DNA from: Desulfobacteraceae bacterium
GTDB lineage: Bacteria > Desulfobacterota > Desulfobacteria > Desulfobacterales > Desulfosarcinaceae
Length of the DNA: 54,155 nt
NCBI GenBank assembly: GCA_024230435.1
Contig: JAAERL010000695.1
Span: 1 to 54,155, forward strand
Direction: 5' to 3'
The notes beneath the pieces are model-generated. The model was not told where the DNA came from. It saw nothing but the letters and a program-made list of their open reading frames with translations, and did no database searches. The position numbers and the translations under genes were made by a program. Of this stretch, positions 4,230 through 31,376 are shown piece by piece. The first letter of the stretch is position 1, and each line of letters begins with the position of its first letter.

Positions 4230-4379
4230 AATGGCTCCTTTTTTTACTCGAAGGGCTTTTCAATCACTGCGTTGCCGGGGTGAAATCAAAAAATATCTTC
4301 AGCACCCCCCATCCGCGCGTGATTGTAAAGCCCTAATTTTTTTTCGCGCTTTGCTTAACCTGAAATGCCAAAAGTACTA

Positions 4380-5228: not shown

Positions 5229-5250
5229 TTTAATCATCTCCTTTTAATTA

Positions 5251-5415
5251 AGGCGATTTGTGTTAAATAATATACCATCTTGCATGTCTTTTTTCCCGTC
5301 TCCTGTGTTATGCCAAAGGTCCGAATACATAAAGTATGCAAACTTTGGCATGCCTTGAAGACGAAAAAAATCTAAAGTATCTGTTAAGATGCTATATTTT
5401 TTGCGCCAATCGCCT
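5251..5415 (-). repeat. family A fold-back repeat, copy 2 (inside the icmF operon)
   Basis: Complete copy with termini AGGCGATT (5251-5258) and AATCGCCT (5408-5415), inverted relative to 50369. It fills nearly the whole gap between thiolase and hbd. The thiolase stop codon TAG (5414-5416, read on the minus strand) is made of one flanking T plus the first two bases of the repeat terminus. Confidence 0.9.
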
Positions 5416-6589
5416 AACGCTTAACAATCAGAGCAACCGCTTCACCGCCGCCCAGACACAAGGACGCCAGGCCGGTCTTTTTATCTGTACGGATCATTTC
5501 ATGCAAAAGAGTAACTAACACACGGCAACCGCTTGCTCCGATGGGGTGTCCCATCGCCACGCTGCCGCCGTTAACGTTTGTTTTTTCAGGGTCCAGTTTA
5601 AGTTCTTTCATTACTCCGCAGGTAGAACCGGAAAATGCTTCATTGATTTCAAACAAATCCACCTGATCCTGGGTGATGCCCTCTTTTTCCAAACACTTGG
5701 GAACCGCCCAAATGGGCGCTACCAAAACATATTTCATATCAATGCCGTATGACGCCTGCGCTCCTATGGTCGCCATAATGGAACATCCCAATGCCTCTGC
5801 TTTTTCCCGGGACATCACTACAACCGCGGCTGCGCCGTCACTGATAATCGAAGCGTTACCGGCCGTGCCAACACCGTCCTTTTTAAAGGCCGGTTTCATT
5901 TTAGCCAAAGCTTCATAGGCGGCTTCGCGTACGCACTCATCCTCATCGAAGATCACGGGATCGCCCTTGCGTTGGGGAATGGTTACCGGCACAATTTCAT
6001 CTTTAAAGCGCCCGGCGGATTTAGCTGCTAAAGCGCGTTGGTAGGACTCGGCAGCGTAGCGGTCCTGATCTTCGCGTGAGATGTCATAGCGTTCAGAACA
6101 CAACTCGTTGGACATACCCATGTGAAAATCGTTGACGATATCCCATAATCCGTCATGGACCATGTGATCTTCGAGTTTGCCCGTTCCCATGCGATATCCC
6201 CAGCGGGCCTTTTCCAGATAGTAGGGCGCTGAACTCATATTTTCCATACCGCCGGCAACCACCACTTCGGCATCTCCGAGTTGGACGGCCTGGGCCGCAA
6301 GCATAACCGATTTTATTGCCGATCCGCATACCTTGTTGATGGTAATGCACTCCACCTCCCAGGGCATACCGGCTTTAATCGCCGCTTGTTTGGCCGGATT
6401 CTGGCCATAACCACAGGGCAATACCTGGCCCATAATGACTTCACTGACTTGCTGCGGCTCGATTTTAGCACGATTGACAGCTTCTTTTATCACAATACCA
6501 CCTAAGTCGGTGGCCCCTATGGATGCTAAAGTGCCGTTAAACGATCCTAGGGCAGTTCGAACGGCGCTGACGATGACTGCTTCTCGCAT
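5414..6589 (-). CDS. acetyl-CoA C-acetyltransferase (thiolase)
   Basis: 391 residues, typical for a degradative or biosynthetic type II thiolase. It cleaves 3-ketoacyl-CoA (probably acetoacetyl-CoA) with CoA, or runs in reverse. Catalytic residues visible: Cys88 in INKVCGSAIKS, His348 in VAMGHPIGASG, and Cys378 in SLCLGGGEA. It lies directly downstream of icmF, so it would complete butyryl-CoA oxidation to two acetyl-CoA. AAGGAG precedes the ATG at 6589. The C-terminus ends in IVKR and its TAG stop overlaps the end of a family A repeat. The exact chain-length preference cannot be told, so no symbol is given. Confidence 0.92.
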   Translation of the reverse strand: MREAVIVSAVRTALGSFNGTLASIGATDLGGIVIKEAVNRAKIEPQQVSEVIMGQVLPCGYGQNPAKQAAIKAGMPWEVECITINKVCGSAIKSVMLAAQAVQLGDAEVVVAGGMENMSSAPYYLEKARWGYRMGTGKLEDHMVHDGLWDIVNDFHMGMSNELCSERYDISREDQDRYAAESYQRALAAKSAGRFKDEIVPVTIPQRKGDPVIFDEDECVREAAYEALAKMKPAFKKDGVGTAGNASIISDGAAAVVVMSREKAEALGCSIMATIGAQASYGIDMKYVLVAPIWAVPKCLEKEGITQDQVDLFEINEAFSGSTCGVMKELKLDPEKTNVNGGSVAMGHPIGASGCRVLVTLLHEMIRTDKKTGLASLCLGGGEAVALIVKR

Positions 6590-6664
6590 TTTTTTATTGC
6601 TCCTTTTAATTTATCGGCATTTTTTTTCTGCCATATTTTAAAAATATATTTCATACACGCATTA

Positions 6665-6732
6665 AGGGCTTCAGAGCAAAAGTGCCATTTAAAGCTACTT
6701 CGAACCCATGTCAACACAGGATTTGAAGCCCT
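6665..6732 (-). other. inverted repeat at the 3' end of icmF
   Basis: AGGGCTTCA (6665-6673) pairs perfectly with TGAAGCCCT (6724-6732) across about 50 nt, just after the icmF stop codon and before the thiolase leader. There is no T-run. It could be an intercistronic RNA hairpin; function is not shown. Confidence 0.4.
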
Positions 6733-6736
6733 CTGG

Positions 6737-9700
6737 TTACATATTACGCCGATACTTACCGCCTACCTCATAAAGAGCCTCAGTAATCTGGCCTAAGCTG
6801 CAATAAAGAACAGTTTCCATCAGCTCGCCAAAAATATTGCCGTTTGACAATACAACCTGCTGCAATCTTTTAAGAGATTCAGAAGTTTTTTGCGCATTAC
6901 GCTGGTGAAAGACGGCAAGACGCGATAACTGGGACTCTTTTTCTTCAGTTGTTGACCGCGCAAGATCAAGACAACCAATACTTTCGGAAAAATTTTCCCC
7001 TCCCGTGTGAGGATCACGGAAAGTATTTACTCCTACGATGGGAAACTCACCCGTATGTTTTAAACCTTCATAATAAATGCTTTCTTCCTGAATCTGGCTG
7101 CGTTGAAAGCCCGTTTCCATGGCTCCAAGCACACCGCCGCGTTCGGTAATACGATCGAACTCGTAAAGCACAGCCTCTTCGACCAGATCGGTAAGTTCAT
7201 CAACAATGAAGCTTCCTTGCAACGGGTTTTCATTTTTTGCCACGCCCCACTCCCTGTTAATAATGAGCTGGATGGCCAGCGCCCGCCGGACAGATTCTTC
7301 CGTTGGCGTGGTAATGGCTTCATCAAAGGCATTGGTGTGAAGGCTCTGGCAGTTATCATAAATAGCGCAAAGGGCCTGCAAGGTCGTACGGATGTCGTTA
7401 AACTGAATATCCTGGCTGTGCAGACTGCGCCCGGAGGTCTGGATGTGATACTTGAGCATTTGGGAGCGGGTTGAAGCCCCGTATTTCTCCCGCAAGGCAA
7501 TGGACCAGATCCGGCGGGCGACACGCCCGATTACCGTATATTCAGGGTCCATGCCGTTGGAAAAGAAAAAAGACAGGTTGGGCCCAAAGGAATCCAGAGG
7601 CATCCCCCTGGACAAGTAATATTCCAGGTAGGTGAACCCGTTGGCCAAAGTAAACGCCAACTGGGAGATTGGATTGGCGCCCGCTTCGGCAATATGATAA
7701 CCGGAAATCGAGACCGAGTAGAAGTTGCGCACATTATTTTTGATAAAATAATCCTGAATATCCCCCATCATTTTTAAAGCGAAGTCTATGGAAAAAATGC
7801 AGGTATTCTGCCCCTGGTCTTCTTTTAATATATCGGCCTGAACCGTTCCCCGGACCGAACATAATGCGTTGACTTTTATGTTTTGGTATTCGTCACTGCC
7901 GGGCTCACGGCCATTTTCCTCTTTAAATTTATCAACTTGCTGGGCAATAGCGGTATTCAGGTACATGGCCAGCATGATGGGCGCAGGCCCATTGATGGTC
8001 ATGGATACCGATGTCGTTGGAGAACATAAATCAAAACCGCCATACAGAACCTTTACATCATCCAATGAGCAAACGCTGACCCCGGAATTGCCTACTTTGC
8101 CATAAATATCCGGTCTTCGATCAGGGTCATAGCCGTATAGGGTGACCGAATCAAAAGCGGTGGACAACCGTTTGGCGTCACTGTTGGCCGATAATAGCTT
8201 AAACCGCCGGTTCGTGCGGGCCGGATCGCCCTCGCCTGCAAACATGCGCGTGGGATCTTCGTCCACCCGTTTGAGGGGAAATACGCCTGCCGTATAGGGA
8301 AAAAAACCCGGAAGATTTTCCCGCCGCAACCAGCGGTAAAGCTCACCAGGATCTTGGAATTTAGGCAAAGCGATTTTGGGTATTTTTTTACGCGACAACG
8401 ACTCGCTGAAAAGCGGAACCCGTATTTGTTTACCACGGACCTGGTAAACCAATTCATCCTGCTGATAAGCCTTGGCGGTTTCATACCATTTTTCAAGAAG
8501 CTCAACGGTTTCGGCATCCATTTGCTGACTGGCTTTTTCCACTTCTTTGGCCAGCACGTTGACCAGCGAGGCGGCATCCGCCTGCTCCGAACAGCTTCCT
8601 AAGGTTTTGGCGGTTTCTTCCAGGTGCCAGGCTTTGCGCACAGCGTTGGCTTGTTTTTCGGTGTGTTGATGATAAAGCCGGATGGCTTCCGAAATTTCCG
8701 ACAGATAGCGCGTGCGTTCCGGTGGAATGATGATAGTTTTTGAACTGGATTGTTTCGCATCCGGCCTTGGAAGCCCGGACTCGAGTAAAATACCCGTTTT
8801 TTCTCTGATGGTTTCCAGCAGGCAATGATAGAGGGCCGTAACACCATCATCATTGAATTTGCTTGCAATAGTGCCAAAAACCGGCATTTGATCAGGTGAT
8901 TTTTCAAAGGCCTGCCGATTACGCTGAACCTGCTTGCGCACATCGCGCAGAGCATCTTCACCGCCGCGCTTTTCAAACTTGTTCACGACGATAATATCGG
9001 CAAAATCCAGCATGTCGATCTTTTCAAGCTGGGAAGCGGCCCCGAACTCGCTGGTCATAACATAAACGGAGATATCGGAAATATCGATAATGTGTGAATC
9101 GCCCTGCCCTATTCCGGCGGTTTCGGCAATGACCAGGTCAAAACCGGCGGCTTTGACCACATCGATGGTTTCGATCAAGGAATCCGGTATTTCGGTATGG
9201 GATCGCCGGGTAGCAAGAGAACGCATGTAAATGCGCGGATTTGCGATGGCGTTCATTCGAATCCGGTCTCCGAGAAGAGCCCCGCCGGTTTTACGGCGGG
9301 AAGGGTCCGCACTGATGATAGCGACCCTGTAGTGTTTAAAATCGTGTAAAAGGCGCAAAATCAATTCATCGGTCAGTGATGATTTGCCTGAACCGCCCGT
9401 TCCTGTGATGCCGATAACCGGCACGTTACGGTCTGCGATTTTCTTTTGCAATTCAGTCCGCAAATTGCCCAGATGGCCGTTTCCCCTGGCCTTGGCCTGC
9501 TCCACAGTCGTAATCAGATTGGCCACCTGCAATTTGTTCTCCGGTGTCAGGTTCGACAGGTCGATGGGGTCAACAGATACACGAGGATAGTCCATCTGCT
9601 GGACCATATGGTTGATAATTCCCTGCAATCCCATTTGAGCGCCGTCTTCGGGCGTATAAATTTTGGTAATGCCATAGTCTTCAAGCTCTTTGATTTCCGG

Positions 9701-10024
9701 TAAAATGATCACACCGCCGCCGCCGCCGAACACTTTGATATGGCAAGCGTCGGCCTCTTTGAGCAGATCCGCCATATATTTGAAGAATTCCATATGGCCG
9801 CCCTGGTAGGATGACACAGCGATACCTTGCACATCTTCTTCTATGGCGGCGGACACGATCTCCTGAACGGAGCGGTTGTGTCCCAGATGAATGACTTCAA
9901 CACCCGTGCTTTGCAAAATTCGCCGGAAAATATTGATTGAGGCGTCATGCCCGTCAAAAAGAGATGTTGCCGTTACAATACGGACATCATTGACCGGCTG
10001 ATAGATTTGAGTTTCCGAACTCAT
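6737..10024 (-). CDS. icmF: fused isobutyryl-CoA mutase IcmF (B12 domain, G-protein chaperone, mutase)
   Basis: 1095 residues, the length of IcmF fusions. It interconverts isobutyryl-CoA and n-butyryl-CoA using adenosylcobalamin. Order of domains: B12-binding domain (about 1-145; cobalt-ligand motif DGHDAS with His26, then SSYQGG and a glycine run near residue 100); MeaB-like GTPase (about 200-420; Walker [10 protein letters not shown] at 208-216, ETAGIGQGD at 301-309, base-recognition motif NKFE at 348-351, where NKxD is canonical); linker; and TIM-barrel mutase (about 555-1095). Two specificity residues can be read by alignment with methylmalonyl-CoA mutase: Phe595 in TRMFAGEG (Tyr in methylmalonyl-CoA mutase) and Gln739 in KEDQGQNT (Arg there). 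Phe plus Gln marks isobutyryl/n-butyryl substrates. It lies between an upstream acyl-CoA dehydrogenase and the thiolase, and AAGGAG precedes the ATG. Confidence 0.95.
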
Positions 10025-10053
10025 GGTATCTCCTTTGGTTTCAGAAAAAAACG

Positions 10054-10100
10054 AATCGGAAAGAGAAGGGCTCCGATCGGCCTCTCTCTCTTTCCGGATT
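10054..10100 (-). other. intercistronic hairpin between acyl-CoA dehydrogenase and icmF
   Basis: AATCGGAAAGAGA (10054-10066) pairs with TCTCTTTCCGGATT (10087-10100) with one bulged base. It fills the gap between two operon genes and has no terminal T-run, so an RNA-stability or processing element is more likely than a terminator. Confidence 0.4.
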
Positions 10101-10122
10101 TTCCTGAATAGTGCTATGCCGT

Positions 10123-11277
10123 CTACTTGATTTTCCCTAAAATAGCGCCGGCAATTGTATTTTTCTGAATCTCCTTGGTTCCTTCGTAAATCTCGGTAAT
10201 CTTGGCGTCCCGGTAGAAACGTTCGACTTCGTATTCAGTCATGTAGCCATAACCTCCCAGTAACTGGATGGCTTCATCGCATACTTCTACGGCTGTACGG
10301 GCCGCATACATCTTGGCCATGGAAGTCAGTTTAGGATCGATCCGGCCCTGGTCGTAATTCCAGGCGGCCTTGTATGTCAACAGGCGGGCAAGTTCTATTT
10401 TGGTGGCCATATCGGCAAGTTTATGCTGGGTAACCTGAAATTGCGCGATCTTCTTGCCGAATTGCTCGCGCTGTTTCACATACGCCAGGGCGCGGTCATA
10501 GGCTCCCTGGGCGGTTCCCAGAGCCTGGGCGGCAATCTGGATGCGGCTTTCATCAAAAAAATGAAGCACATGATAAAAACCTTTGTTTTCTTCTCCAATC
10601 AGATTAGAAACCGGAACGCGCACATCCTTGAAAATGACTTCCGCCGTGGCCATCATGCGAATCCCCATTTTGCTGCCTACATCTTGAGTGGAAACGCCGG
10701 GCCTGTCCGCTTCCACTAAAATCAGGCTCTGGCCTCTGTAACCGGGCTTGGCATTAGGGTCGCTCTGACATAAAACAGAATAAAAACCGGCAAGTCCGGC
10801 ATTGGTAATGAACGTTTTTCCGCCGTTGATAATCCATTCATCGCCTTCCTTCATGGCCGTAGTGTTCATGAAAGTGATATCCGAACCATGATCGGGCTCG
10901 GTGAAAGCGCCGGCCGAAAGCATGCGGGCCTCAGCCACCTGCGGCAGGTATTTTTCTTTCTGCTCATCAGTGCCGTTATGCAAAATCAACTCGGCAGCAA
11001 AGCTTGCCAGGGCAATGGAGCTTCCGATAGTTGAGTCAGCCCGGCACAGTTCCTCCACAACCAAAATACACTCCAGGCAGCCCATATCCTGGCCGGAATA
11101 CTTTTCAGGGTAATGAACACCGATCAGGCCGATCTCACCGGCTTTTTGCCAGATCTTTTTTGGGAACTCGTGTTTTTCCTCCAATTCCAGAGCCAGATCT
11201 TTATCAAACTCTCCCTTGCAGAAATCTCTTACGGCTTTTTGAATTTGTTCCTGGGTTTTGTTGAGTTCAAAGTCCAT
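10123..11277 (-). CDS. acyl-CoA dehydrogenase
   Basis: 384 residues. Seen: N-terminal helices ([16 protein letters not shown]), FAD/substrate signature [12 protein letters not shown] near residue 136, and the C-terminal catalytic Glu in [11 protein letters not shown] (Glu at about 365). It is the first enzyme gene of the icmF operon, 45 bases after tetR and about 100 before icmF. Together with the last gene of the operon it gives two dehydrogenases, perhaps one for a branched and one for a straight-chain acyl-CoA (inference). AAGGGGG precedes the ATG. Electrons would go to ETF, which is not encoded in the window. Confidence 0.9.
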
Positions 11278-11320
11278 TTAATTCCCCCTTGTTTAGATTA
11301 ATTAATGCCTATTGGCCCTG

Positions 11321-12016
11321 TTAAAACTCCTTTTTTGTTATTTTACGTTTCGAAGCGGGCGGTCTTTTCACTGCAACGTTTTGCTGACCTAAAATAAACG
11401 CAGTCTGCATATCCACATATTGATCCAAGGTATAATGCCTGGCCAGAAACCACCGGCGAAAAGTCCACATATGTCCCAGAACTGTAATGTTATGAGCGAT
11501 CAAATCCAGGCAGTTCCCGTCCATTTGGATAAGTTGTCCATCTTCCATGAGCTGCATCAACACGCTGGTAAACAATCCTGTAATACGAATTTCATTTTCA
11601 AGTACGACTTTGCGCCACTTGGAAGGCAGGGACTGGGTTTCCTGATAAATTAATAAGATATGGTCATTCATCTCATGACATACCTTAAAATATTCACGGA
11701 TGACTTCACCCAGTGGATTGGCAACGGTTTGCGCCCGTTCGAGCGCTTGTGCGACACCTTGCTCAACTTCCGCGTGTATGGCATCACAGACCAAATAGAG
11801 AATATCCTCTTTTGATTCAACGTATTCATACAACGATCCTATGGACAAGCCTGCCGCACGGGCCAACTGCCGTGTGGTTGTTTTGTGGAATCCGTTTGCA
11901 ATAAACAGTTCCACCGCCGCATCAACAATTTGACGCCGCCGGAGGGCGACCAGATCTTTGTTCTTAACCTGAGTCGGTACATCTTTTAAACAATTGATAT
12001 TTCGTGTTATATTCAT
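11321..12016 (-). CDS. TetR-family transcriptional regulator of the icmF operon
   Basis: 231 residues. Residues about 28-75 are a TetR helix-turn-helix (RRRQIVDAAVELFIANGFH, then TTTRQLARAAGLSIGSLYEY). The rest is a helical ligand/dimer domain (about 85-215) and a basic Lys/Arg-rich tail. It is the first gene of the operon, and a 12-bp dyad sits between its promoter and the coding region, the usual arrangement for autorepression. The ligand is probably an acyl-CoA from the pathway (inference). There is no good RBS before the ATG at 12016; no better start is apparent. Confidence 0.88.
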   Translation of the reverse strand: MNITRNINCLKDVPTQVKNKDLVALRRRQIVDAAVELFIANGFHKTTTRQLARAAGLSIGSLYEYVESKEDILYLVCDAIHAEVEQGVAQALERAQTVANPLGEVIREYFKVCHEMNDHILLIYQETQSLPSKWRKVVLENEIRITGLFTSVLMQLMEDGQLIQMDGNCLDLIAHNITVLGHMWTFRRWFLARHYTLDQYVDMQTAFILGQQNVAVKRPPASKRKITKKEF

Positions 12017-22786: not shown

Positions 22787-24463
22787 TTGAGCATCATGTT
22801 TGTCAACGACTATCAAAATTTACTCGGTATCTTTACCCAGGTGAGCAAGGCCGCGCACACCGGAGAAAACCTGCAGGGCATCCTGCAAACCATTATCACT
22901 CATATCACGGATGCTTTAAATGCAAAGGGCAGCACTATCCTCAGTCTGGACCCGTCCAGCGGCGAACTCGAATTGATAGCCTCTACAGGCTTAAGCGACG
23001 CCTACCTTAAAAAAGAGCCTATCCTAAGCCGTCATGTCTTTTCTGAAATTCACGAAAAGGAGCCTGTGTTTATCCGCAATGTTACCTGCGATAAACGCAT
23101 CCAATACCCTGAAACAGTAAAAGCCGAGGGTATTCAATCGATGCTGGGCTATCCTTTTGATATTGTCGGCGGTCATCGCATGGTCCTGCGAATCTATTTC
23201 GATAGAACCTTTAAACCTGACGATAACAGCCTGGCCTTTCTCCGTGCGCTTGTTGACCAATGCGCCATCGCTGCACGCTATACTTTGCTGCAAAGCCGGT
23301 ATTTCGAAACTTTCCGTCATGTCAGCAAGGCAATCCACACCGACATAAACACTGGTGACATCTTAAATACCATTGTGACTCACATTTCTGAAATTATGGA
23401 GGCCAAAGGCTCCATTTTCTGGATTATCGACACAGCACAGCAGCGTATTGAATCAAAAATCAACTACGGTTTTGCATATGAAAGCCTCTTATCCGTACAG
23501 CATGATACATTGCTGGAACTGTTTCCCCTTGACCAGAACGGCCCGATTTTTATTAAAGACGCCCGCTATGATCAACGCATTCCAAGTTTGGAGCTTTTGG
23601 GAAAAAAACAAGTGGTTACCATCATCGGACTGCCGCTTACTATTGCAGAACCCTATAAAGGTATTCTGGCTGTTTATTTCGGCAGGCAGCGTCCGGTCCT
23701 GCAAAGTGAAATTGATTTTATTGAAGCTTTAGGCGAACAGGGGGCCATCGCCCTTCATAAAGCATTACGCTACGATGAAAACATGCTCTCAACCCTTAGC
23801 CAAACGGTTGAAGGGTTTGCGCTGGCCATCGAGGCAAAAGACACTATCACCCATGGCCATTCCTTAAGAGTGGCCTGCTACGCCAAACGCCTCGCCCAGG
23901 CATTAAAGCTTGATGAAAAGCAAATCGAAACCGTATACCACGCAGGTTTGCTGCACGACATCGGCAAAATCGGAATGGGGGACAGACTTTTAAACCGTTT
24001 AGGTAAATTAACCGAGCGGGAAATGGATATTATGCGCAAACATCCCATAATCGGAGCTAAAATCGTAGCCCCTCTCACCTGTTTAGCAAGCTCAGTGCCC
24101 TTGATTCTCCATCACCACGAGCTTTATGACGGCAGTGGTTACCCGGATGGCCTGAAAAAAAACAGCATCCCGCTTGGAGCCCGCATCCTGACGGTTTGTG
24201 ATGCCTTTGAAACTATGCTCACAGGACGCGTGAACATGCCAAAACTTAATTTGGGCCAAGCCATCAAGCAATTACGCATTTCGGCGGGCATTATGTTCGA
24301 TCCGGAAATTGTCCGCATCTGGATTGAAATTGTAAAAAATGATCCTAAAATCTTAAATCCGCCAGAAGCTCCAGCTCATATTTTGGATAAACTTGTCGAT
24401 ACTTGCGATGACAATTTGAAAAAAAATAAATTTTTTATTCGCTCCTGGTTCCGGTTGCCGTAA
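22787..24463 (+). CDS. GAF-GAF-HD-GYP protein (probable cyclic-di-GMP phosphodiesterase)
   Basis: 558 residues from a TTG at 22787; an ATG three codons later (22796) is as likely, and neither has a strong RBS. Two related GAF modules (about 10-155 and 170-325; both start with a phrase like QVSKAAHTGENLQGILQTII / HVSKAIHTDINTGDILNTIV) precede an HD-GYP domain (about 345-500) with the metal motifs HAGLLHDIGKIG, HHHE and DGSGYPDGLK. All key HD-GYP residues are present, so hydrolysis of c-di-GMP is expected. No membrane segment, hence a cytosolic sensor. It stands as a single gene. Confidence 0.88.
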   Translation: MSIMFVNDYQNLLGIFTQVSKAAHTGENLQGILQTIITHITDALNAKGSTILSLDPSSGELELIASTGLSDAYLKKEPILSRHVFSEIHEKEPVFIRNVTCDKRIQYPETVKAEGIQSMLGYPFDIVGGHRMVLRIYFDRTFKPDDNSLAFLRALVDQCAIAARYTLLQSRYFETFRHVSKAIHTDINTGDILNTIVTHISEIMEAKGSIFWIIDTAQQRIESKINYGFAYESLLSVQHDTLLELFPLDQNGPIFIKDARYDQRIPSLELLGKKQVVTIIGLPLTIAEPYKGILAVYFGRQRPVLQSEIDFIEALGEQGAIALHKALRYDENMLSTLSQTVEGFALAIEAKDTITHGHSLRVACYAKRLAQALKLDEKQIETVYHAGLLHDIGKIGMGDRLLNRLGKLTEREMDIMRKHPIIGAKIVAPLTCLASSVPLILHHHELYDGSGYPDGLKKNSIPLGARILTVCDAFETMLTGRVNMPKLNLGQAIKQLRISAGIMFDPEIVRIWIEIVKNDPKILNPPEAPAHILDKLVDTCDDNLKKNKFFIRSWFRLP

Positions 24464-24530
24464 GGATCTTGGAAGTTTCACCACCACCTGCTGCTGCTGC
24501 TGATATATTGATGAAAAAAACAATCTTTTT

Positions 24531-24706
24531 AGGCAATTGGCGCAAAAAAAATATAGCATTTTACCAGATACCTTATTGAGCTTAGATTTTTTTAGTCTTC
24601 AAGGCATGCCAAAGTTTGCATACTTAACGTATTCGCACCTTTAGCATAACGCATAAGACGGGAAAAAAGACATGCAAGACGGTATATTATTTGACAGATA
24701 TCGCCT
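24531..24706 (+). repeat. family A fold-back repeat, copy 3
   Basis: Termini AGGCAATT (one base off) and ATCGCCT. It has the central block CATGCCAAAGTTTGCATAC followed by CGTATTCGCACCTTTAGC, the subtype also seen at 5251, 36693 and 50369. It occupies most of the gap between the HD-GYP gene and the TetR gene. Confidence 0.9.
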
Positions 24707-24775
24707 TGAAAGGCACAGATTGTAAAAAAAAATTCAAACTCAAGGCCGATCCCGTCAACAATCCCCTCCTGACTC

Positions 24776-24826
24776 TTGACAAATACTAAATTTGATGGTT
24801 ATCTATTTACCTAACGACCGGTCGGT
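24776..24826 (+). promoter_or_regulatory. promoter and TetR-type operator of the second catabolic operon
   Basis: TTGACA (24776-24781), 17 bases, then TTATCT (24799-24804) as a weak -10. It is followed by AACGACCGGTCGGT (24813-24826), a dyad with a perfect 10-bp core CGACCGGTCG, at the expected transcription start. Autorepression by the following TetR is inferred. Confidence 0.6.
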
Positions 24827-24894
24827 ATTTTTGATCTGTAACAGACTCCCGGCTCATGGACGTTTTAAAATATGAAAATAAGGATCCATCTATA

Positions 24895-25503
24895 ATGTCA
24901 TCCATGAAGCAAACCATACGCGACGTCTCTATCAATCTTTTTTACCGTAAGGGCTATTTTGCCACCAGCATCAGCGAAATTGCAGCCGGTTGCGGAATTC
25001 AAAAAGCAAGCATCTACTATCACTATCCGGGCAAGGAAGACATCTTGTTCGGAATTATGCGAAAAACCATGGACGATCTGACGTCTTGTTTAAAAAAGAA
25101 CCTTCAAGGCCTTGATGATATCGAAGGGCGTATGCGAGCTGCGGTCAAAGGCCATGTCAGGTTTCATCTGGAACATCAAAAAGAGACATTTATCGCCAGC
25201 AGCGAGCTGCGCGGTTTATCGGAAGGCAATTACAGCATTATCGTTGCGAAAAGGGATGCATACGAGCGCATTTTGCAAGATCTCATCAGCGAAGGTGCTC
25301 AAAAAGGTGTTTTTGGTAAAAACGACATCAAGATTCTCTCATACGCCATTCTTACCTTGTGCACAGCAGGCGCATCCTGGTTTAAACCCAATGGGCGTCT
25401 TAGCATTGATGAAATTGCATCCATATATGAGGAATTTATTATTAGCGGTCTTAAACCGGGGCTCGAAAAGGCTGCGTTAAGGTCGCAAATTTCAGCTGTT
25501 TAA
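24895..25503 (+). CDS. TetR-family transcriptional regulator
   Basis: 202 residues from the ATG at 24895 (AAGGA upstream); a longer start at 24856 adds 13 residues but has no RBS. N-terminal helix-turn-helix: IRDVSINLFYRKGYFATSIS then EIAAGCGIQKASIYYHYPGK. The C-terminal helical domain (about 60-190) resembles fatty-acid-degradation regulators of the KstR2/FadR-like group. It heads an operon with acyl-CoA dehydrogenase, enoyl-CoA hydratase, HMG-CoA-lyase-like and XRE-cupin genes and has an operator-like dyad at its own promoter. Confidence 0.88.
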   Translation: MSSMKQTIRDVSINLFYRKGYFATSISEIAAGCGIQKASIYYHYPGKEDILFGIMRKTMDDLTSCLKKNLQGLDDIEGRMRAAVKGHVRFHLEHQKETFIASSELRGLSEGNYSIIVAKRDAYERILQDLISEGAQKGVFGKNDIKILSYAILTLCTAGASWFKPNGRLSIDEIASIYEEFIISGLKPGLEKAALRSQISAV

Positions 25504-25521
25504 ACTTATTGTATGAAGCTG

Positions 25522-25538
25522 CTGTTACGCTGTAACAG
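25522..25538 (+). promoter_or_regulatory. inverted repeat between tetR and acyl-CoA dehydrogenase
   Basis: CTGTTAC (25522-25528) and GTAACAG (25532-25538) form a perfect 7-bp dyad with a 3-nt loop, extended by AAGC/GCTT. It lies 20 bases before the dehydrogenase start and could be an operator or an RNA hairpin. Confidence 0.4.
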
Positions 25539-25558
25539 CTTGCCGAAAGGAGGTCAGG

Positions 25559-26707
25559 GTGAATTTTGACTTAACAAAAGAACAAGAAATGATCCGCAGA
25601 GAAGTCAGGCGGTTTGCCGAAAGCGAGATTGCGCCCGTGGCTGCCGAACTCGATGAAAATGAGAAGTTTTCAGTTTCGTTGACCAAAAAAATTGGTGAAA
25701 TCGGTTTGTTTGGCATGTTTGTCCCTGAAAAATACGATGGTCAGGCTATGGACTATCTGTCATATATCATCGCCGTTGAAGAGATCGCCAGAATCGATGG
25801 CAGCCAGGCTGCCACCGTTGCGGCCGGCAACTCTTTAGGGATAGGGCCCCTTTATTACTTTGGCAGTGAAGAGCAAAAAGCAAAATACTTACCGCCACTG
25901 TGCAGAGGAGAAAAATTATGGGGCTTCGGCTTAACTGAACCCACAGCCGGTTCGGATGCCGGAGGAAGCAAAACCACTGCTGTAAAAGACGGCAACGAGT
26001 GGGTCATAAACGGTTCTAAAATTTTCATTACCAACGCATCCTGCGAGATGACCCTGGGTGTTACTGTACAGGCCATTACAGGCGCCCGCGAAAATGGCAA
26101 GCCGGAATATTCCTGTTTTATCGTAGAAGCGGGGACAAAAGGATTTAAAGCTGCAACCATGAAGGGCAAAATGATGTGGCGCTCTTCAAACACCGCTGAA
26201 CTCTATTTCGATGACGTTCGCGTTCCGGCTGAAAACATGATCGGCAAACAAGGAGACGGTTTTCACCAAATGTTGCAGACATTGGACGGCGGAAGGCTTT
26301 CCATCGGCGCCATGGGCTTGGGTGGTGCAACCGGAGCTTACGATTTGGCCCTCAAATACGCTAAATCAAGGGAGCAGTTCGGCCAGCCCATCTCAAAATT
26401 CCAGGCTGTGGCTTTTAAACTGGCCGATAGCGCAATGGAAATTGAATGCGCCCGAAACATACTCTATAAAGCCTGCTGGTTAAGAGATCAAAAACGCCCC
26501 TTTGCCAGGGAAGCCGCCATGGCCAAACTCTACTGCTCCGAACTGATGGGACGCGTTGCCGACCATGCCGTTCAAATACACGGGGGCTATGGATTAATGA
26601 AAGATTATAATGTGGAGCGATTTTATCGTGACCATAAATTATTGGAAATTGGCGAAGGGACATCCGAAGTACAACGAATCGTCATTTCACGTTATATCGG
26701 CTGTTAA
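25559..26707 (+). CDS. acyl-CoA dehydrogenase
   Basis: 382 residues from a GTG start at 25559 with AAGGAGG upstream. Signature blocks: FDLTKEQEMIRREVRRFAES at the N-terminus, WGFGLTEPTAGSDAGG (about 121-136), and the catalytic Glu in LEIGEGTSEVQR (about 366); the residue before it is Gly where Tyr is usual. Next to enoyl-CoA hydratase and an HMG-CoA-lyase-like gene, so the substrate may be a 3-methyl-branched acyl-CoA (inference from context). Not an obvious duplicate of the enzymes at 2445 or 10123. Confidence 0.9.
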   Translation: MNFDLTKEQEMIRREVRRFAESEIAPVAAELDENEKFSVSLTKKIGEIGLFGMFVPEKYDGQAMDYLSYIIAVEEIARIDGSQAATVAAGNSLGIGPLYYFGSEEQKAKYLPPLCRGEKLWGFGLTEPTAGSDAGGSKTTAVKDGNEWVINGSKIFITNASCEMTLGVTVQAITGARENGKPEYSCFIVEAGTKGFKAATMKGKMMWRSSNTAELYFDDVRVPAENMIGKQGDGFHQMLQTLDGGRLSIGAMGLGGATGAYDLALKYAKSREQFGQPISKFQAVAFKLADSAMEIECARNILYKACWLRDQKRPFAREAAMAKLYCSELMGRVADHAVQIHGGYGLMKDYNVERFYRDHKLLEIGEGTSEVQRIVISRYIGC

Positions 26708-26730
26708 CTAAAACCAGGGAGAGTATAATA

Positions 26731-27513
26731 ATGGAAGAAAAGACAATATTATGCCACATTGAAGCAGGTATTGCCACCATCACCCTCAATCGTCCCAAGG
26801 TGATGAACTCTGCAAATTTTCAGCTTTTAAATGAATTTAACGAGCTGCTGGAAAATCTTCGATATGATTCTAGCGTGCGTGTTCTTATTGTCACCGGAGC
26901 AGGCGAAAAAGCATTCTGTGCCGGTGCGGACCTCAAAGAACGCGCCACGCTAAAACCAGAACAGGTTAAATTTTTTATTTTTAGTATTCGAAGACTGTTT
27001 GAAGGTTTGGATAATTTTCCCAAACCCGTCATTGCGGCTGTCAACGGCATTGCCTTAGGCGGCGGCACCGAGTTAGCCCTGGCCGCTGATATCCGCATTG
27101 CCGCTGAAAGCGCCAGCATGGGCTTGACGGAAACACGCCTGGCCATAATCCCTGGAGCCGGGGGCACCCAACGTCTGCCCCGCCTTATTGGTAAAGGCAA
27201 AGCCAAAGAACTAATTTTCACAGGCCGCCGGGTCGATGCCCAGGAAGCGCTTCAAATCGGCTTGGTCAACAAGGTCGTCCCTTTGGATAACCTCATAGGA
27301 GCCTGCCGGGAAATGGCGGCCATGATATCTGAAACCGGACCGATTGCGCTCGAGCAGGCCAAGTACGCCATCAATCGGGGATCGGAGGTTGACCTGGCCA
27401 CCGGCTTGGCCATTGAGTCCAATGCCTATTGGATTTGTATTCCCACTCAAGACCGGCTTGAAGGATTAAAAGCATTTAAGGAAAAAAGAAAACCCGTGTA
27501 TCAAGGAAAATAA
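26731..27513 (+). CDS. enoyl-CoA hydratase/isomerase (crotonase family)
   Basis: 260 residues, the normal crotonase length. Oxyanion-hole motifs: CAGADLKERA (about 69) and ALGGGTELALAADIRIA (about 109-125). The two acid/base glutamates of true hydratases are placed in GLTETRLAIIPGAGGTQRLP (about 131-150), which retains the first Glu and a Pro-Gly-Ala block, so it is likely an active hydratase. It is 23 bases after the dehydrogenase, RBS GGGAG. It should hydrate the enoyl-CoA made by that enzyme. Confidence 0.9.
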   Translation: MEEKTILCHIEAGIATITLNRPKVMNSANFQLLNEFNELLENLRYDSSVRVLIVTGAGEKAFCAGADLKERATLKPEQVKFFIFSIRRLFEGLDNFPKPVIAAVNGIALGGGTELALAADIRIAAESASMGLTETRLAIIPGAGGTQRLPRLIGKGKAKELIFTGRRVDAQEALQIGLVNKVVPLDNLIGACREMAAMISETGPIALEQAKYAINRGSEVDLATGLAIESNAYWICIPTQDRLEGLKAFKEKRKPVYQGK

Positions 27514-27557
27514 AAAATATCACAAGAAAGTGAACTGAAATTAGGAGGTATCTGGTC

Positions 27558-28730
27558 ATGAAAGAATATGATTATTGGAAAATATTCCCGCGTATGCCCA
27601 AAAAAGTTACCATCGGCGACATTACTGTGCGTGATGGTTTTCAACACCTGGAGAAATTTGTTTCCACACGCGCAAAGATTTATTACCTGGAGCAATTGAT
27701 TTTCGCCGGTTGCCGTAACATTGAAGTTACCAACTTTGGAAATCCTTATCTTATGCCCCAATTCAGTGATGCCGAAGAGCTTTTCAAACACCTGCGAAGC
27801 GAGCGCTTCAAAAAACGCTGCGCACGCAAAGGCGTCAACTACAATGACATTGTTTTTACAGCCATAACCATCCGGGAATCTGCCGTGGATACCGCCTGCC
27901 GTATGTATGAACAAGGCATCGGCCCCGACCGTCTTTTGATGATGGTTTCCACGGAAGAAGATCACCATTTTGCAAACTCCGGCTGCACCCTTCCGGAATA
28001 CTGGAAAGAGTGCGAACGCTCCATTAAAAAATGCCATGACGCAGGAATGAAAATGTGCGGTACGGTCAGCACCATTTGGGGAAGTCCCATCGGCGGGGCC
28101 ACAAAATTGGAAGATGCTGTGGAGTTTACCAAACGCTGGCTGGAAATCGGCGCAGATGACATCGAACACGCCGACCATGACGGAAGCGCCTCGGCTGCTG
28201 ATGTTTACCGTTATTTTGCCATGATTTTGGATTCAATTCCCGATCCGTCACTGCACATCGCCCACTTTCATGAAACAAAAAGAGTCGCTTCCGCGTCCAT
28301 TCTGGCTTCTTTGCAAGCCGGGATCTGCCATTTTGAAGCCACCCTGGGCGGATTGGGCGGACAACCGGCCAACTTTTTGGACGACTGCCCCGTGCCCGGA
28401 ACCGGCGAATATTATTACGATGATCCGCGCTATGTGGGATTGATCTGCCTGGAAGATTTACTTGTTCAGGTTGATGAAATGGGTATCGAGCATGGTTATG
28501 ATGTGGACCGTATTCTGAAGTTAGGCCGCCAATTGGAAAAAACCGTTGGACATCGTCTGCGCTCGGAGGCTGCCATCAATGGGCGTACCCTGAAAGAAGG
28601 GCATCCTAAATATGCCCGCCCTGGTCTGAAAAAACGCAAGGAAAAAATGGGTGAAGGAATTAACCAGAACTTGCCCTCCGAGTGGGGACAAAAAGCGGTT
28701 TTGCCTGAGCACTTGCAACCAAAGGATTAG
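27558..28730 (+). CDS. HMG-CoA-lyase-like carbon-carbon lyase (HMGL superfamily)
   Basis: 390 residues with a TIM-barrel of the HMGL/pyruvate-carboxyltransferase family. Family marks: TVRDGFQHLEKFV (metal Asp and catalytic Arg, as RDGLQ in HMG-CoA lyase), GADDIEHADHDGSAS, HIAHFHETKR (metal-binding His pair) and LEDLLVQVDEMGIEHGYDVD near the C-terminus. In HMG-CoA lyases the loop reads GLGGCP with the active-site Cys; here it is GGLGGQPANF, so the Cys is replaced by Gln. A C-terminal extension of about 60 charged residues is also present. It follows enoyl-CoA hydratase in the operon and probably cleaves a 3-hydroxyacyl-CoA or a relative; the reaction is unproven. AGGAGG precedes the ATG. Confidence 0.75.
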   Translation: MKEYDYWKIFPRMPKKVTIGDITVRDGFQHLEKFVSTRAKIYYLEQLIFAGCRNIEVTNFGNPYLMPQFSDAEELFKHLRSERFKKRCARKGVNYNDIVFTAITIRESAVDTACRMYEQGIGPDRLLMMVSTEEDHHFANSGCTLPEYWKECERSIKKCHDAGMKMCGTVSTIWGSPIGGATKLEDAVEFTKRWLEIGADDIEHADHDGSASAADVYRYFAMILDSIPDPSLHIAHFHETKRVASASILASLQAGICHFEATLGGLGGQPANFLDDCPVPGTGEYYYDDPRYVGLICLEDLLVQVDEMGIEHGYDVDRILKLGRQLEKTVGHRLRSEAAINGRTLKEGHPKYARPGLKKRKEKMGEGINQNLPSEWGQKAVLPEHLQPKD

Positions 28731-28752
28731 GCGATACCTGGAAAAATCGCAA

Positions 28753-28779
28753 TGGTGCGCACGTAATTGGTGCGTACCA
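28753..28779 (+). other. intercistronic hairpin
   Basis: TGGTGCGCAC (28753-28762) pairs with GTGCGTACCA (28770-28779) with one G-T pair. It lies between the lyase-like gene and the XRE-cupin gene. Confidence 0.45.
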
Positions 28780-28811
28780 CAATGCAAAGAGGGCTTATTA
28801 AGGAGACAACC

Positions 28812-29450
28812 ATGTCAACAAAAAACAAAAAATCATCCATGAGCGTTGACTTTTTTGAAGATCTTACCGGAGACATCAAAACTGGCGCTGAAGTTAAAAC
28901 CGATCAGATCGGTGACAGAATCAAACGGTTGCGTGAAGAAAAAGGTATCTCAATAGAACAACTTTCACATATGACCGGTTTTGAGTCAAAATTCCTTGAA
29001 GATATCGAAAAAAACATCTTATTCCCCCAACTGGGCGCCATGATCAAGCTCAGCAAAGCCTTGGAAAGTGCTCTTCAACGCCTGATTTCCGAAGAAAGCA
29101 AAAAAATATACACCATCACCCGCCGCAAGAATCGCAAGCAAATAAAACGCTTTGCATCCGGGAAAGGCCAAAGCGCCGCATACGCCTATATGAGCCTGGC
29201 CCCGCAAGTCCAAGGCCGGCACATGGAACCGCTGGTTGTCCAACTTGAAAAATTACAGGATGTCGAACCTTCGGTTCATGTGGGCGAAGAGTTTATTTTT
29301 GTCATGGATGGAGCCGTATCCTTAGACATTGGTGAAGAGAACTTTATTCTGGAACCCGGCGACAGCGCTTACTATTTGTCCACCACGCCGCATTTGCTAT
29401 CAGCCAAAGAAGAAAAAGCTACCATTCTGGCTGTTATTTATTGCGAATAA
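28812..29450 (+). CDS. XRE-family regulator with C-terminal cupin domain
   Basis: 212 residues from the ATG at 28812 with AAGGAGA upstream (a longer frame from 28767 lacks an RBS). After a polar N-terminal 35 residues comes a helix-turn-helix (about 38-90: DRIKRLREEKGISIEQLSHM, SKFLEDIEKNI) and then a cupin (about 125-210: VHVGEEFIFVMDGAVSLDIG, LEPGDSAYYLSTTPHLLSA). Same build as the protein at 3678, longer at the N-terminus. Both close or sit within beta-oxidation operons. Likely a ligand-sensing regulator of this operon. Confidence 0.85.
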   Translation: MSTKNKKSSMSVDFFEDLTGDIKTGAEVKTDQIGDRIKRLREEKGISIEQLSHMTGFESKFLEDIEKNILFPQLGAMIKLSKALESALQRLISEESKKIYTITRRKNRKQIKRFASGKGQSAAYAYMSLAPQVQGRHMEPLVVQLEKLQDVEPSVHVGEEFIFVMDGAVSLDIGEENFILEPGDSAYYLSTTPHLLSAKEEKATILAVIYCE

Positions 29451-29533
29451 GCAAAAAGACATAAAGGCATAGCATATTGAAGTTATCGGCCGTGCTTTCA
29501 ACCGGAAGGGGCTTCTTGGGCCGCGGCTTTTTA

Positions 29534-29726
29534 TACATACTTGAATACTTGAAATTGCCGCGTATTTGCAGGGCAGCCTAACTGGCCTCATCAGCGGCGC
29601 TGACCACTTGTTTCGTGTTAGCGCCGCGAAAATCCCCGGCACACTTGTTTCCATCAAATAGGGATCGCATGATTCATACCCGGCCGGGCGGCCGGCGTTA
29701 TGCAACAGATTGTGGCCGGTGACCAC
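29534..29726 (-). pseudogene. remnant of a thioredoxin-reductase-like FAD oxidoreductase
   Basis: On the minus strand one frame reads TGHNLLHNAGRPAG, DPYLMETSVPGIFAA, and a second frame continues ANTKQVVSAADEAS, stop, AALQIRGNFKY. Together these match the C-terminal end of thioredoxin-reductase-like flavoproteins (VPGIFAAGD..TKQVVSAA.EG..AAL), but a frameshift within the FAAGD motif and an in-frame stop break it, and nothing of the N-terminal part is seen. A decayed gene fragment in the gap after the XRE-cupin gene. Confidence 0.55.
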
Positions 29727-29748
29727 AAATCCCCACCGATAAAATCAA

Positions 29749-29783
29749 AAAAGGTAAAGGCCTCAAAAATGCCTTCACCTTTT
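29749..29783 (-). terminator. terminator of the small repeat-protein gene
   Basis: AAAAGGTAAAGGC (29749-29761) pairs with GCCTTCACCTTTT (29771-29783) with one mismatch; on the minus strand it is followed by a T-run. It lies about 125 bases after the stop of the gene at 29909. Confidence 0.6.
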
Positions 29784-29908
29784 AAAATTGAACTGAATCT
29801 AAAGCATCATTAATCGTTTTCCCGGCAAACATTCCACCATAAGGACTCATTGATCTCCGCAGTTTTTTAGGGCCGGATAAAACAATCGCCTTAGCTCCTT
29901 AGTTTGGT

Positions 29909-30220
29909 TTATATAACATTGCCAAGCAAAAAACGCTCAAAAGATTTTGCAAGACCCTCTGGCGCATTTTCCATACAATTAGAGCTAAATAAGTCATCTT
30001 CATAGATATTTGCAGCGTGATTCATGCCCTGATAACTTAATTTGCTCTTTGAATGATCATCTATTTCCATGATTAGATGTTTATTGATATGCTCATCCAA
30101 ATCAATCGAATCTTCATCGACATGTTTAACCGTCAAATGTTCATCGGCATGTTTAACCGTCAAATGTTCATCGGCATGTTTAACCGTCAAATGTTCATCT
30201 ATGTGTTGCCTTAGATCCAT
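29909..30220 (-). CDS. small His/Asp-rich protein with 9-residue tandem repeats
   Basis: 103 residues; AAGGGG lies at a good distance before the ATG at 30220, and a terminator follows, so it is probably real. The N-terminal third consists of the 9-residue unit DEHLTVKHA repeated three times with a partial unit on each side, encoded by 27-bp repeats (30119-30199). The middle is acidic (DEDSIDLDEHINKHLIMEID); the C-terminal part has no repeats. No signal peptide or membrane segment. The regular His and acidic residues could bind metal or form an amphipathic helix, which is a guess. No family is recognised. Confidence 0.55.
   Translation of the reverse strand: MDLRQHIDEHLTVKHADEHLTVKHADEHLTVKHVDEDSIDLDEHINKHLIMEIDDHSKSKLSYQGMNHAANIYEDDLFSSNCMENAPEGLAKSFERFLLGNVI
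30119..30199. repeat. 27-bp in-frame tandem repeat, three units
   Basis: Units at 30119-30145, 30146-30172 and 30173-30199 differ only at one base near the start of the first; each encodes nine residues of the protein at 29909. Near identity suggests recent expansion or correction. Confidence 0.9.
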
Positions 30221-30233
30221 AAAATCAATCCCC

Positions 30234-30271
30234 TTATTGATAGCTCATTGGCTTATTGATAGCTCATTGGC
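30234..30271. repeat. 19-bp direct tandem repeat in the leader of the repeat-protein gene
   Basis: TTATTGATAGCTCATTGGC occurs twice without spacer (30234-30252 and 30253-30271), just upstream of the RBS of the gene at 29909. Confidence 0.9.
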
Positions 30272-30530
30272 GGTTATGGAACTCGACGAGCCGGATTATT
30301 TTTGATTCTTAAATAGGAATAAGGTTATTCATAATAAGAAATACCTTTTTCGTAAAGCAGTTTTTTCCCTTAAGCAATTTTTTTGCAACTTTTCTGATAC
30401 CCGGATAATTAAAATTTTGGTCTTGCACGCTAGAAAAACTCCATGATGATCTCATCGGCAATGATGAATTGTTTTTCATCATGATACATATTTAAAAGCT
30501 TAAATAATATCGAACGCTCGCTTTATTTTA

Positions 30531-30559
30531 TTGACACTGAATGGCGCAATCTGTATTTT
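30531..30559 (+). promoter_or_regulatory. sigma-70-type promoter of the third catabolic group
   Basis: TTGACA (30531-30536), exactly 17 bases, TATTTT (30554-30559), about 105 bases before the histidine-phosphatase start. Immediately upstream, CGAACGCTCG (30511-30520) repeats nine bases of the dyad found at the icmF-operon promoter, but here as little more than a half-site. The remainder of the gap 30272-30665 holds nothing else. Confidence 0.55.
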
Positions 30560-30665
30560 CAAATCAACCAAAATTTTTTTCTGATAAAAAATAATAACTC
30601 CCCCTGATCGAACTTATAGGTGACATCGTGTCTTTGTGTACCCATTTTTTCAGAAAGGGATCACC

Positions 30666-31376
30666 TTGAGCGTTTTATATTTGATTCGCCATGGACAGGC
30701 TTGTTTCGGGACAGACACCTATGATCAACTCTCAGACATTGGGCGGCATCAGTCCCGTGTTCTGGCGGCTGATTTAATGCGGGCCGGAATTAGATTCGAT
30801 GCCTGTTGGTCCGGTACCCTAAAACGGCAACTGCAAACCGTTGACCAGGTGCGATCCACTTTCCGGGAAAAAGGTTTGGACCTGCCCGATTCGACCGGAA
30901 TATCAGGTTTCAATGAATATGATGCACAAAAAATTTTCAGAGCAGTGATACCTCTCATCCTCGATGAAGACAGTGAGTTCATTCACCATGTCAACACCAT
31001 GCACACTGACCACCGGACTTTTCAAAGGGTCTTTGAACGTGCGGCGACCCGCTGGGCATCCGGCCGGGACAGCCTGGACGAAGCGCTGACCTGGTCAACT
31101 TTTGCCATGCGTGTGACCAACAGTATAAGAAAAATTATCAATCACAGCGGCAGAGGCCGCCATGTGGCCGTTTTTACTTCAGCAGGCCCCATCGCTGTGG
31201 CTATGGGCAATGTTTTAGGACTCAGTGCGGACAAAACCGTGACTGTTTCCTGGCAAATAGTCAACTCGTCCGTTACCCGGTTTAAATTCAGCCGGGGACG
31301 AATCAGCCTTGCGACCTTCAACGAATATGGCCACTTGGAACGCAATGGTGAAAAGTCTTTGGTTACCTATCGTTAG
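30666..31376 (+). CDS. histidine phosphatase (phosphoglycerate-mutase-like)
   Basis: 236 residues from a TTG start at 30666, chosen because AAGGGA lies 6 bases upstream and because it puts the catalytic motif at the usual place: LYLIRHGQACFGTD (phospho-His in RHG, about residue 9). The second half has GRGRHVAVFTSAGPIAVAMG, the usual HxxV-like second active-site block with SAG where SHG is common. It acts on phosphate esters in the cytosol. It is the first gene of the group with an ACAD10/11-type dehydrogenase and an APH-type kinase, where a phosphatase would be expected to act on or recycle a phosphorylated acyl-CoA intermediate (inference). Confidence 0.8.
   Translation: MSVLYLIRHGQACFGTDTYDQLSDIGRHQSRVLAADLMRAGIRFDACWSGTLKRQLQTVDQVRSTFREKGLDLPDSTGISGFNEYDAQKIFRAVIPLILDEDSEFIHHVNTMHTDHRTFQRVFERAATRWASGRDSLDEALTWSTFAMRVTNSIRKIINHSGRGRHVAVFTSAGPIAVAMGNVLGLSADKTVTVSWQIVNSSVTRFKFSRGRISLATFNEYGHLERNGEKSLVTYR

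Follow-up and report, generated by a model that had tools for sequence, protein, structure and literature searches.

The window, by which we mean the whole stretch of 54,155 nucleotides of Desulfobacteraceae DNA that was analyzed, contains on its forward strand five closely spaced genes in the order TetR-ACAD-ECH-lyase-XRE/cupin, separated by intergenic gaps of 55, 23, 44 and 36 bp (Table 1). The lyase gene has an ATG start, is preceded by AGGAGG and encodes a protein of 390 amino acids. Pfam assigned a single domain to this protein, PF00682 (HMGL-like, 72 bits), and found no C-terminal LeuA-type synthase domain. The best NCBIfam model was that for HMG-CoA lyase (NF004283) with 137 bits, which is below its cut-off of 246, and the top PDB matches by sequence were HMG-CoA lyases as well (6nds, 1ydo, 2cw6). 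A preliminary description of this DNA had reported the motifs VRDGFQ, HFHET and GGLGGQPANF and a Gln in place of the active-site Cys. All three motifs were confirmed, and this Gln indeed aligns with Cys266 of the human enzyme HMGCL.

Table 1. Genes of the lyase cluster and active-site features of the lyase, with positions in the window
Feature	Position	Strand	Basis or remark
TetR-family regulator (TetR_N, TetR_C_24)	24856..25503	+	Pfam; first in cluster
Acyl-CoA dehydrogenase (ACAD), SCAD/butyryl-type, IGEGTS	25559..26707	+	Pfam/NCBIfam, motif reading
Enoyl-CoA hydratase (ECH)	26731..27513	+	NCBIfam NF005802 (PRK07657), 366 bits vs cut-off 363
Cysteine-free HMG-CoA-lyase-type enzyme (GGQP family)	27558..28730	+	Pfam, PDB search, alignment, tree, fold
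Arg25-Asp26	27630..27635	+	Arg41 and metal ligand Asp42 of HMGCL (alignment)
His207	28176..28178	+	at Thr205 of HMGCL; invariant in main family
His236-Phe-His238	28263..28271	+	metal ligands His233/His235 of HMGCL
Gln269	28362..28364	+	at catalytic Cys266 position of HMGCL
17-residue active-site-loop insertion Ala271-Tyr287	28368..28418	+	alignment; low model confidence
Leu295	28440..28442	+	at metal ligand Asn275 position of HMGCL
XRE/cupin regulator	28767..29450	+	Pfam: Cupin_2 above cut-off, HTH_19 slightly below

The dehydrogenase would convert isovaleryl-CoA to 3-methylcrotonyl-CoA; the Glu of its IGEGTS motif is at what we take to be the canonical base position. The hydratase was compared with known structures, of which 3kqf scored highest (294 bits), followed by 5jbw/5jbx (242 bits; titled 3-hydroxybutyryl-CoA dehydratase and presumably Myxococcus LiuC), the human methylglutaconyl-CoA hydratase AUH as fourth-best structure (235), 5zai (227), the short-chain enoyl-CoA hydratase 5z7r (225) and the enoyl-CoA hydratase 1dub/1mj3 (181). 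These scores lean towards the proposed function of a 3-methylglutaconyl-CoA hydratase, if not decisively.

The preliminary description had also stated that the operon provides dehydrogenase and hydratase, and no 3-hydroxyacyl-CoA dehydrogenase, thiolase or biotin carboxylase. This is correct for the immediate cluster, from which both a carboxyltransferase and an acetoacetate-CoA ligase (AACS) are also absent. It does not extend to the genome, which has a carboxyltransferase, biotin carboxylase and biotin carrier set on another contig (C317), or to the rest of the window, where a 3-hydroxyacyl-CoA-dehydrogenase-like ORF (4380-5237, -) and a thiolase-like ORF (5414-6589, -), both assigned from N-terminal sequence alone, lie beside an IcmF gene in a separate module ∼21 kb from the lyase gene. 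This second branched-acid module (2445-12016, -) comprises an ACAD, an XRE/cupin homologue, the two ORFs just mentioned, the fused isobutyryl-CoA mutase IcmF (1903 bits), another ACAD and a TetR-like ORF. At three loci of relatives (L083, L085, L112) an ACAD and an XRE/cupin gene like those of this module are found on the strand opposite to the adjoining ECH-lyase pair.

Just past the lyase cluster, the ORF at 29909-30220 (-) contains a 27-bp tandem repeat (30109-30199, 3.4 copies) with a repetitive DEHLTVKHA frame. An exact 53-bp inverted repeat is present near both contig ends (1755-1807 and ∼54046-54098), and is perhaps the repeat that broke the assembly. Consensus scanning of positions 24400-30700 gave 6 sites resembling terminators, against an expectation of 7.5, and 16 resembling promoters, against 10.3 (sd 3.2); these sites were not used.

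The lyase has the fold of HMG-CoA lyases and belongs to a separate clade

The AlphaFold2 model of the lyase had a mean pLDDT of 79.8 and a pTM of 0.83, with values below 50 for the active-site loop (residues 268-292). The eight structures nearest to it in fold were HMG-CoA lyases, with Z of 31.8-33.6 and an identity of 22-26% over the fold, and the shared TIM-barrel gave Z ∼33 for the human (2cw6/3mp5), Bacillus subtilis (1ydo) and Acinetobacter baumannii (6nds) enzymes. The next folds were an aldolase (1nvm, Z 25.6) and a homocitrate synthase (6ktq, Z 25.5). A maximum-likelihood tree with 74 rows placed all 44 GGQP rows, one of which reads GGWP, in one clade with support 99/99 apart from the Cys-type rows; the placement of some long-branch rows is unsure. 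Homocitrate, 2-isopropylmalate and citramalate synthases have the TIM-barrel superfamily fold and the HxH metal site in common with the lyase, but they are more distant in fold (Z ∼25), they carry a C-terminal domain where the lyase has PF00682 alone, and their single row in the tree, the citramalate-synthase-like L002, is a long outgroup branch separate from the lyase. A synthase identity was therefore set aside, and the earlier assignment to the HMGL-type lyases stands.

A member of the main family (∼49% identity or more) was detected in 70 of the 297 sampled genomes of the phylum, two of which (G041, G011) hold merely a lyase fragment. A second genome scan gave at least 547 confirmed relatives. 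The best 80 of these, which were used here, are mostly metagenome-assembled genomes (MAGs) titled Desulfobacterales, Desulfobacteraceae or Deltaproteobacteria, and also include the cultured Desulfosarcina widdelii, D. alkanivorans and Desulfocicer vacuolatum as well as a few MAGs titled Geobacter, Geobacteraceae or Desulfuromonadaceae. The 20 plasmid-borne relatives listed, out of 364, were only 26-31% identical, and the two inspected were of the Cys type.

Key catalytic residues are replaced in all aligned members of the main family

The lyase and human HMGCL have Arg41, Asp42, Gln45, Glu72, Asn138, Asp204, His233 and His235 in common (HMGCL numbering). According to the available text of a review, the critical residues of HMG-CoA lyase are Arg41, Glu72, Tyr167 and Cys266, while the metal is bound by Asp42, Asn275, His233 and His235 (PMC6941031). 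Cys266 and Asn275 were invariant in all 13 canonical rows of our alignment. In the lyase they are replaced by Gln269 and Leu295, respectively, where the latter equivalence depends on aligning across the 17-residue insertion in the active-site loop. Further replacements are Thr205 to His207, Leu202 to His204, Ser201 to Glu203, Tyr167 to Thr169, Arg165 to Cys167 and Glu37 to Asp21. Positions 167 and 72 carry little weight in this comparison because they vary among the same 13 canonical relatives (Tyr167 is Tyr in five and Glu72 is replaced by Gln in four).

The GGQP motif was invariant in 17 of 17 diverse relatives (alignment A1, 46-80% identical) and in 40 of 40 rows of a second alignment (A2). 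Judged from these alignments, the Gln is not a chance substitution. The position of Asn275 is occupied by Leu in 13/13 main-family rows and by Asn in the 4/4 rows of two sister GGQP subfamilies (L177/L181 and L176/L178), which have the Gln and retain Asn275, Thr205 and Glu37. The tree thus suggests an order of events in which Cys was exchanged for Gln first, and the Asn, the Thr and neighbouring residues would have followed in the main family. Within the same clade, one protein (L074, on contig C2 of G058) has a Trp at the Cys266 position (GGWPANF). As to what may have taken over from the lost residues, His207 is a speculative candidate for a replacement metal ligand or acid/base. A Cys in the loop motif FLDDC was considered as substitute thiol; it is found in the window's subgroup and not in the whole family, and is therefore no general substitute for Cys266.

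Since two defining residues are replaced and the NF004283 score lies below the cut-off, the lyase is an HMGL-fold enzyme that is closest to HMG-CoA lyases and yet is not a canonical member.

Relatives are encoded next to probable genes for isovalerate degradation

Neighbouring genes were mapped by tblastn in 120 main-family loci, i.e. 39 loci, the best-matched 80 and the window itself. Four of these were fetched twice, which leaves 116 distinct loci, and both sets are samples. Genes were counted as neighbours when they shared the strand of the lyase gene and lay no more than 9 kb from it, a procedure by which genes cut at contig ends are missed; 12 of the 120 loci had no mapped upstream gene. 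An ECH-type gene was found at 103/116 distinct loci and an ACAD gene at 77/116, so that the conserved neighbourhood with hydratase and dehydrogenase was borne out. Any type of carboxyltransferase was encoded at 51/116 loci, the MCC-beta-like protein CTb at 41/116, the XRE/cupin regulator at 46/116, AACS at 22/116 and a canonical-type lyase at 15/116, while a TetR homologue was present in 17 of the 120 loci. The mapped gene directly upstream (<400 bp) was ECH in 57/120 loci and CTb in 37/120. CTb has MCC-beta as best PDB match, and the AACS from one such cluster scores well above the TIGR01217 cut-off.

The fullest order, TetR-ACAD-ECH-CTb-lyase-XRE/cupin-AACS, was observed at L040 and L041/L128; in D. 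vacuolatum (L140) a ligase gene is located between ACAD and ECH and a TetR gene was not in reach. At L143, genes for MCC-alpha, MCC-beta, a dehydrogenase with the motif IGAGTS and AACS are followed by that for the GGQP lyase, which is the only lyase found in this 11-kb stretch. Sister-subfamily loci (L185, L186) also have ACAD, AACS, ECH, lyase and XRE/cupin genes. All 66 window-type ACADs inspected have IGEGTS, and all eight ACAD2-type proteins have IGAGT, which we take to mark isovaleryl-CoA dehydrogenases.

Three loci have a different layout, with another HMGL-like protein, containing TLRE(F/Y)GQN and GGTGGC, encoded next to the lyase gene on the other strand (L052:8803-9756, L053:8532-9539, L054:235-1179), and with an ECH-like protein of 401-512 amino acids (weak Pfam score) paired with a GcdA-type subunit upstream of the lyase.

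The physiological role of an orthologue is, very probably, already in print. The available part of a study on Desulfococcus multivorans DSM 2059 locates a gene cluster for isovalerate at 3.20 Mbp of the 4,455,399-bp chromosome and reports, from a proteome analysis with 17 substrates profiled, that only 3-methylbutanoate-adapted cells formed AcsA6, EchA2, Mcc and HmgL (PMC5109826). At 3,210,174-3,211,340 of genome G161 we found an orthologue that is 77% identical to the window lyase and reads GGQPANF. Its gene lies in a TetR-ACAD-ECH-CTb-lyase-XRE/cupin-AACS cluster with one extra ORF before AACS. This orthologue is very probably the HmgL of that study (PMC5109826, available part), with which it was matched by location only; a missing cysteine is not commented on there. 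The cluster has the TetR-ACAD-ECH...lyase-XRE/cupin order in common with the window, but includes the carboxyltransferase and AACS genes that are missing from the window cluster.

A proposed role in the carboxylating route

The best reading of the gene neighbourhoods, the genome content and the published proteome of a relative is a role in isovalerate degradation. We consider it probable that the GGQP lyase performs the C-C cleavage when isovalerate or leucine is degraded anaerobically via carboxylation, where it would split HMG-CoA without the canonical cysteine. In this scheme, isovaleryl-CoA would be dehydrogenated by the ACAD and the product carboxylated by a carboxyltransferase encoded elsewhere in the window's genome. 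The carboxylated product would then be hydrated by the ECH to 3-hydroxy-3-methylglutaryl-CoA, which the GGQP lyase may cleave to acetoacetate and acetyl-CoA, and the acetoacetate would be activated by an acetoacetate-CoA ligase. Candidate genes for the missing steps are present on other contigs of this genome. A cluster on C317 (L159) encodes a carboxyltransferase, a biotin carboxylase, a biotin carrier, an AtuA family protein, an acyl-CoA ligase and a dehydrogenase, and its carboxyltransferase, an MCC-like beta subunit, shares 53% identity with MCC-beta from the Geobacter-type liu cluster L144. A glutaconyl-CoA-decarboxylase-type subunit is encoded on C1209 and AACS on C1055; the carboxylases are candidates for the carboxylation step.

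The retro-Claisen chemistry could use Arg25, Asp26, Glu56, Asp206 and the His236/His238 metal site. In place of Cys266, water, His207 or another residue of the loop might act, and either His207 or Asn272 might substitute for the lost Asn275 ligand. HMG-CoA lyase activity is nevertheless not to be assumed for an active site in which the catalytic Cys, the metal-binding Asn and further residues have been exchanged. Other facts that weigh against this proposal are the absence of carboxyltransferase and AACS genes from the window cluster, the IGEGTS rather than IGAGT motif of its dehydrogenase, and the canonical lyase that most carrier genomes also encode.

GGQP lyases coexist with canonical HMG-CoA lyases

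A lyase above the canonical cut-off was present in 55/70 carrier genomes vs 30/227 others (Fisher odds ratio 24), and GGQP and canonical lyases are therefore companions more than substitutes. Canonical lyases were defined here by the NF004283 score; at least one match above the cut-off, in the non-carrier G021 (L181), in fact belongs to a sister GGQP subfamily, which is likely to be true of further matches. A residue check on 40 lyases from carrier genomes identified 37 with the Cys, while L218, L221 and L223 were unmatched by the patterns used.

At L132, L137 and L144, which are complete liu-type clusters including MCC-alpha and MCC-beta genes, the canonical lyase gene is located 50-59 bp before the GGQP lyase gene, and at L146 this distance is 1.1 kb. 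The loci L048-L051 have ACAD, canonical lyase, ECH and GGQP lyase genes; in G008 (L049:8020-8856, -) a fumarase-type gene (PF05681) comes after such a canonical-plus-GGQP lyase cluster. We also inspected 20 canonical-lyase loci from 19 carrier genomes, chosen among those where the GGQP gene had not been observed to have a canonical lyase as neighbour. At 19 of these 20, ACAD, ECH, carboxyltransferase and AACS genes were all absent nearby, a number that, due to the way these loci were picked, says nothing about the 15 loci with a canonical lyase near, and that includes two short stretches (L252, L258) and two loci with ligase-type neighbours (L246, L244). The exception was G123, with ACAD, GcdA, AACS and ECH genes beside the canonical lyase gene on the other strand. 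In the window's genome, the canonical lyase is encoded on C404, apart from pathway genes.

Two companion lyases might divide the substrates between them, such that the GGQP enzyme acts on HMG-CoA of the other stereochemistry, or on a longer 3-alkyl homologue, beside a canonical (S)-HMG-CoA lyase. The frequent presence of both types in one genome, and within 9 kb on one strand at the 15 loci mentioned, would fit this idea, as would the AtuA/carboxylase cluster of the window's genome, and the available text of one report describes an (R)-HMG-CoA route with an unrelated lyase in another organism (PMC6689899). We regard it as doubtful: no residue-level evidence on stereochemistry was found, and in the inspected set the canonical enzyme was encoded apart from the pathway genes at 19 of 20 loci.

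It is distinctly doubtful, too, that the GGQP protein performs another reaction of the same pathway, either as an acetyl-CoA-dependent condensing enzyme or as a regulatory or partner subunit of the canonical lyase. The loss of both Cys266 and Asn275 is in line with this, and the PAN at +3 of the Gln resembles, in our own reading, the GERCGN loop of the citramalate-synthase-like L002. However, 15/70 carriers had no lyase above the canonical cut-off (some of these genomes are incomplete, and G073 and G176 have one slightly below it), Pfam found no synthase C-terminal domain, and tree and fold group the protein with HMG-CoA lyases.

Genome content argues for carboxylation

The proposed carboxylating route also has to be weighed against the hypothesis of the preliminary description, in which carboxylation is bypassed and the lyase splits a tertiary 3-hydroxyacyl-CoA that lacks a second carboxylate, such as 3-hydroxyisovaleryl-CoA, which would give acetone and acetyl-CoA. 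The assumption of a 3-methyl-branched acid as pathway substrate holds for the pathway of an orthologue, as far as the available part of PMC5109826 goes. A carboxylation-free lyase would moreover agree with the window cluster, which has ACAD and ECH without a carboxyltransferase, with the changes at Arg165, Tyr167 and Asn275, and with the presence of a second lyase beside the canonical one.

The comparison across genomes points the other way. Carboxyltransferase and AACS genes were found at 51 and 22 of the 116 loci, respectively, and the available text on D. multivorans reports that Mcc was formed on isovalerate together with HmgL (PMC5109826). All 33 mapped active-site positions were identical between 29 lyases with and 44 lyases without a carboxyltransferase as neighbour (27 and 42 distinct sequences; the sample of 73 sequences, 69 distinct, was restricted to ≥74% identity to the query, ≥360 amino acids and 3 kb upstream). 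CTb was found in 34 genomes (33 at ≥53% identity and one fragment), of which 32 also have the lyase, and a carboxyltransferase of either the MCC-beta-like (E 1e-75) or the GcdA type was present in 67/70 carriers, the exceptions being G003, G011 and G093. Four genomes that are 97-99% complete (G210, G254, G105, G070) have the lyase while an MCC-beta-like protein was not found in them at E 1e-75, which favours the bypass; all four, however, have a GcdA-type carboxyltransferase. GcdA as such is weak evidence and was rejected as a specific partner, since it is enriched with the lyase (42/70 carriers) but also common without it (44/227 non-carriers). Acetone carboxylase gamma was detected in only 6/70 carrier genomes and not found in the window's genome. 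Given these neighbourhoods, the genome content, the rarity of acetone carboxylase and the identical active sites, we judge the carboxylation-free reading to be unlikely.

Discussion

The cluster in the window resembles the leucine degradation clusters of the liu or yng type, which, like the relatives studied here, combine dehydrogenase, carboxylase, hydratase and lyase genes. It differs from them by the lack of a carboxylase, the SCAD-type dehydrogenase and a lyase of the GGQP clade. The lyase itself is like HMG-CoA lyases in its barrel, in the residues listed above and in its leucine/isovalerate-type cluster, and unlike them in the replacement of Cys266, Asn275, Thr205, Tyr167 and Arg165 and in the 17-residue loop insertion. 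In the open-licence papers searched, we recognised no description of a cysteine-free HMG-CoA lyase or of a rebuilt active site of this kind.

Beyond the proposed role in the carboxylating route, we entertain, as a tentative idea, that the GGQP clade represents an acyl-CoA lyase with a mechanism of its own. Such an enzyme would cleave tertiary 3-hydroxyacyl-CoA without a thiol acid and by means of a remodelled metal site, in which His207 stands in for Asn275, and it could act on a substrate or stereoisomer not accepted by canonical HMG-CoA lyase. In the four genomes where an MCC-beta-like protein was not found (G210, G254, G105, G070) this substrate may even be uncarboxylated 3-hydroxyisovaleryl-CoA.

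For this organism, a carboxylation-free route remains unlikely unless an assay shows otherwise. For annotation, the results imply that names given on the basis of fold conceal two enzyme types within one genome. Two residues that the available text of the review lists as critical or metal-binding (PMC6941031) are lost in a family found in 70 of the 297 phylum genomes, and yet in many cases the lyase encoded alongside dehydrogenase, hydratase, carboxyltransferase and acetoacetate-CoA ligase is the GGQP enzyme. The family therefore makes a direct test of the purpose of the cysteine possible.
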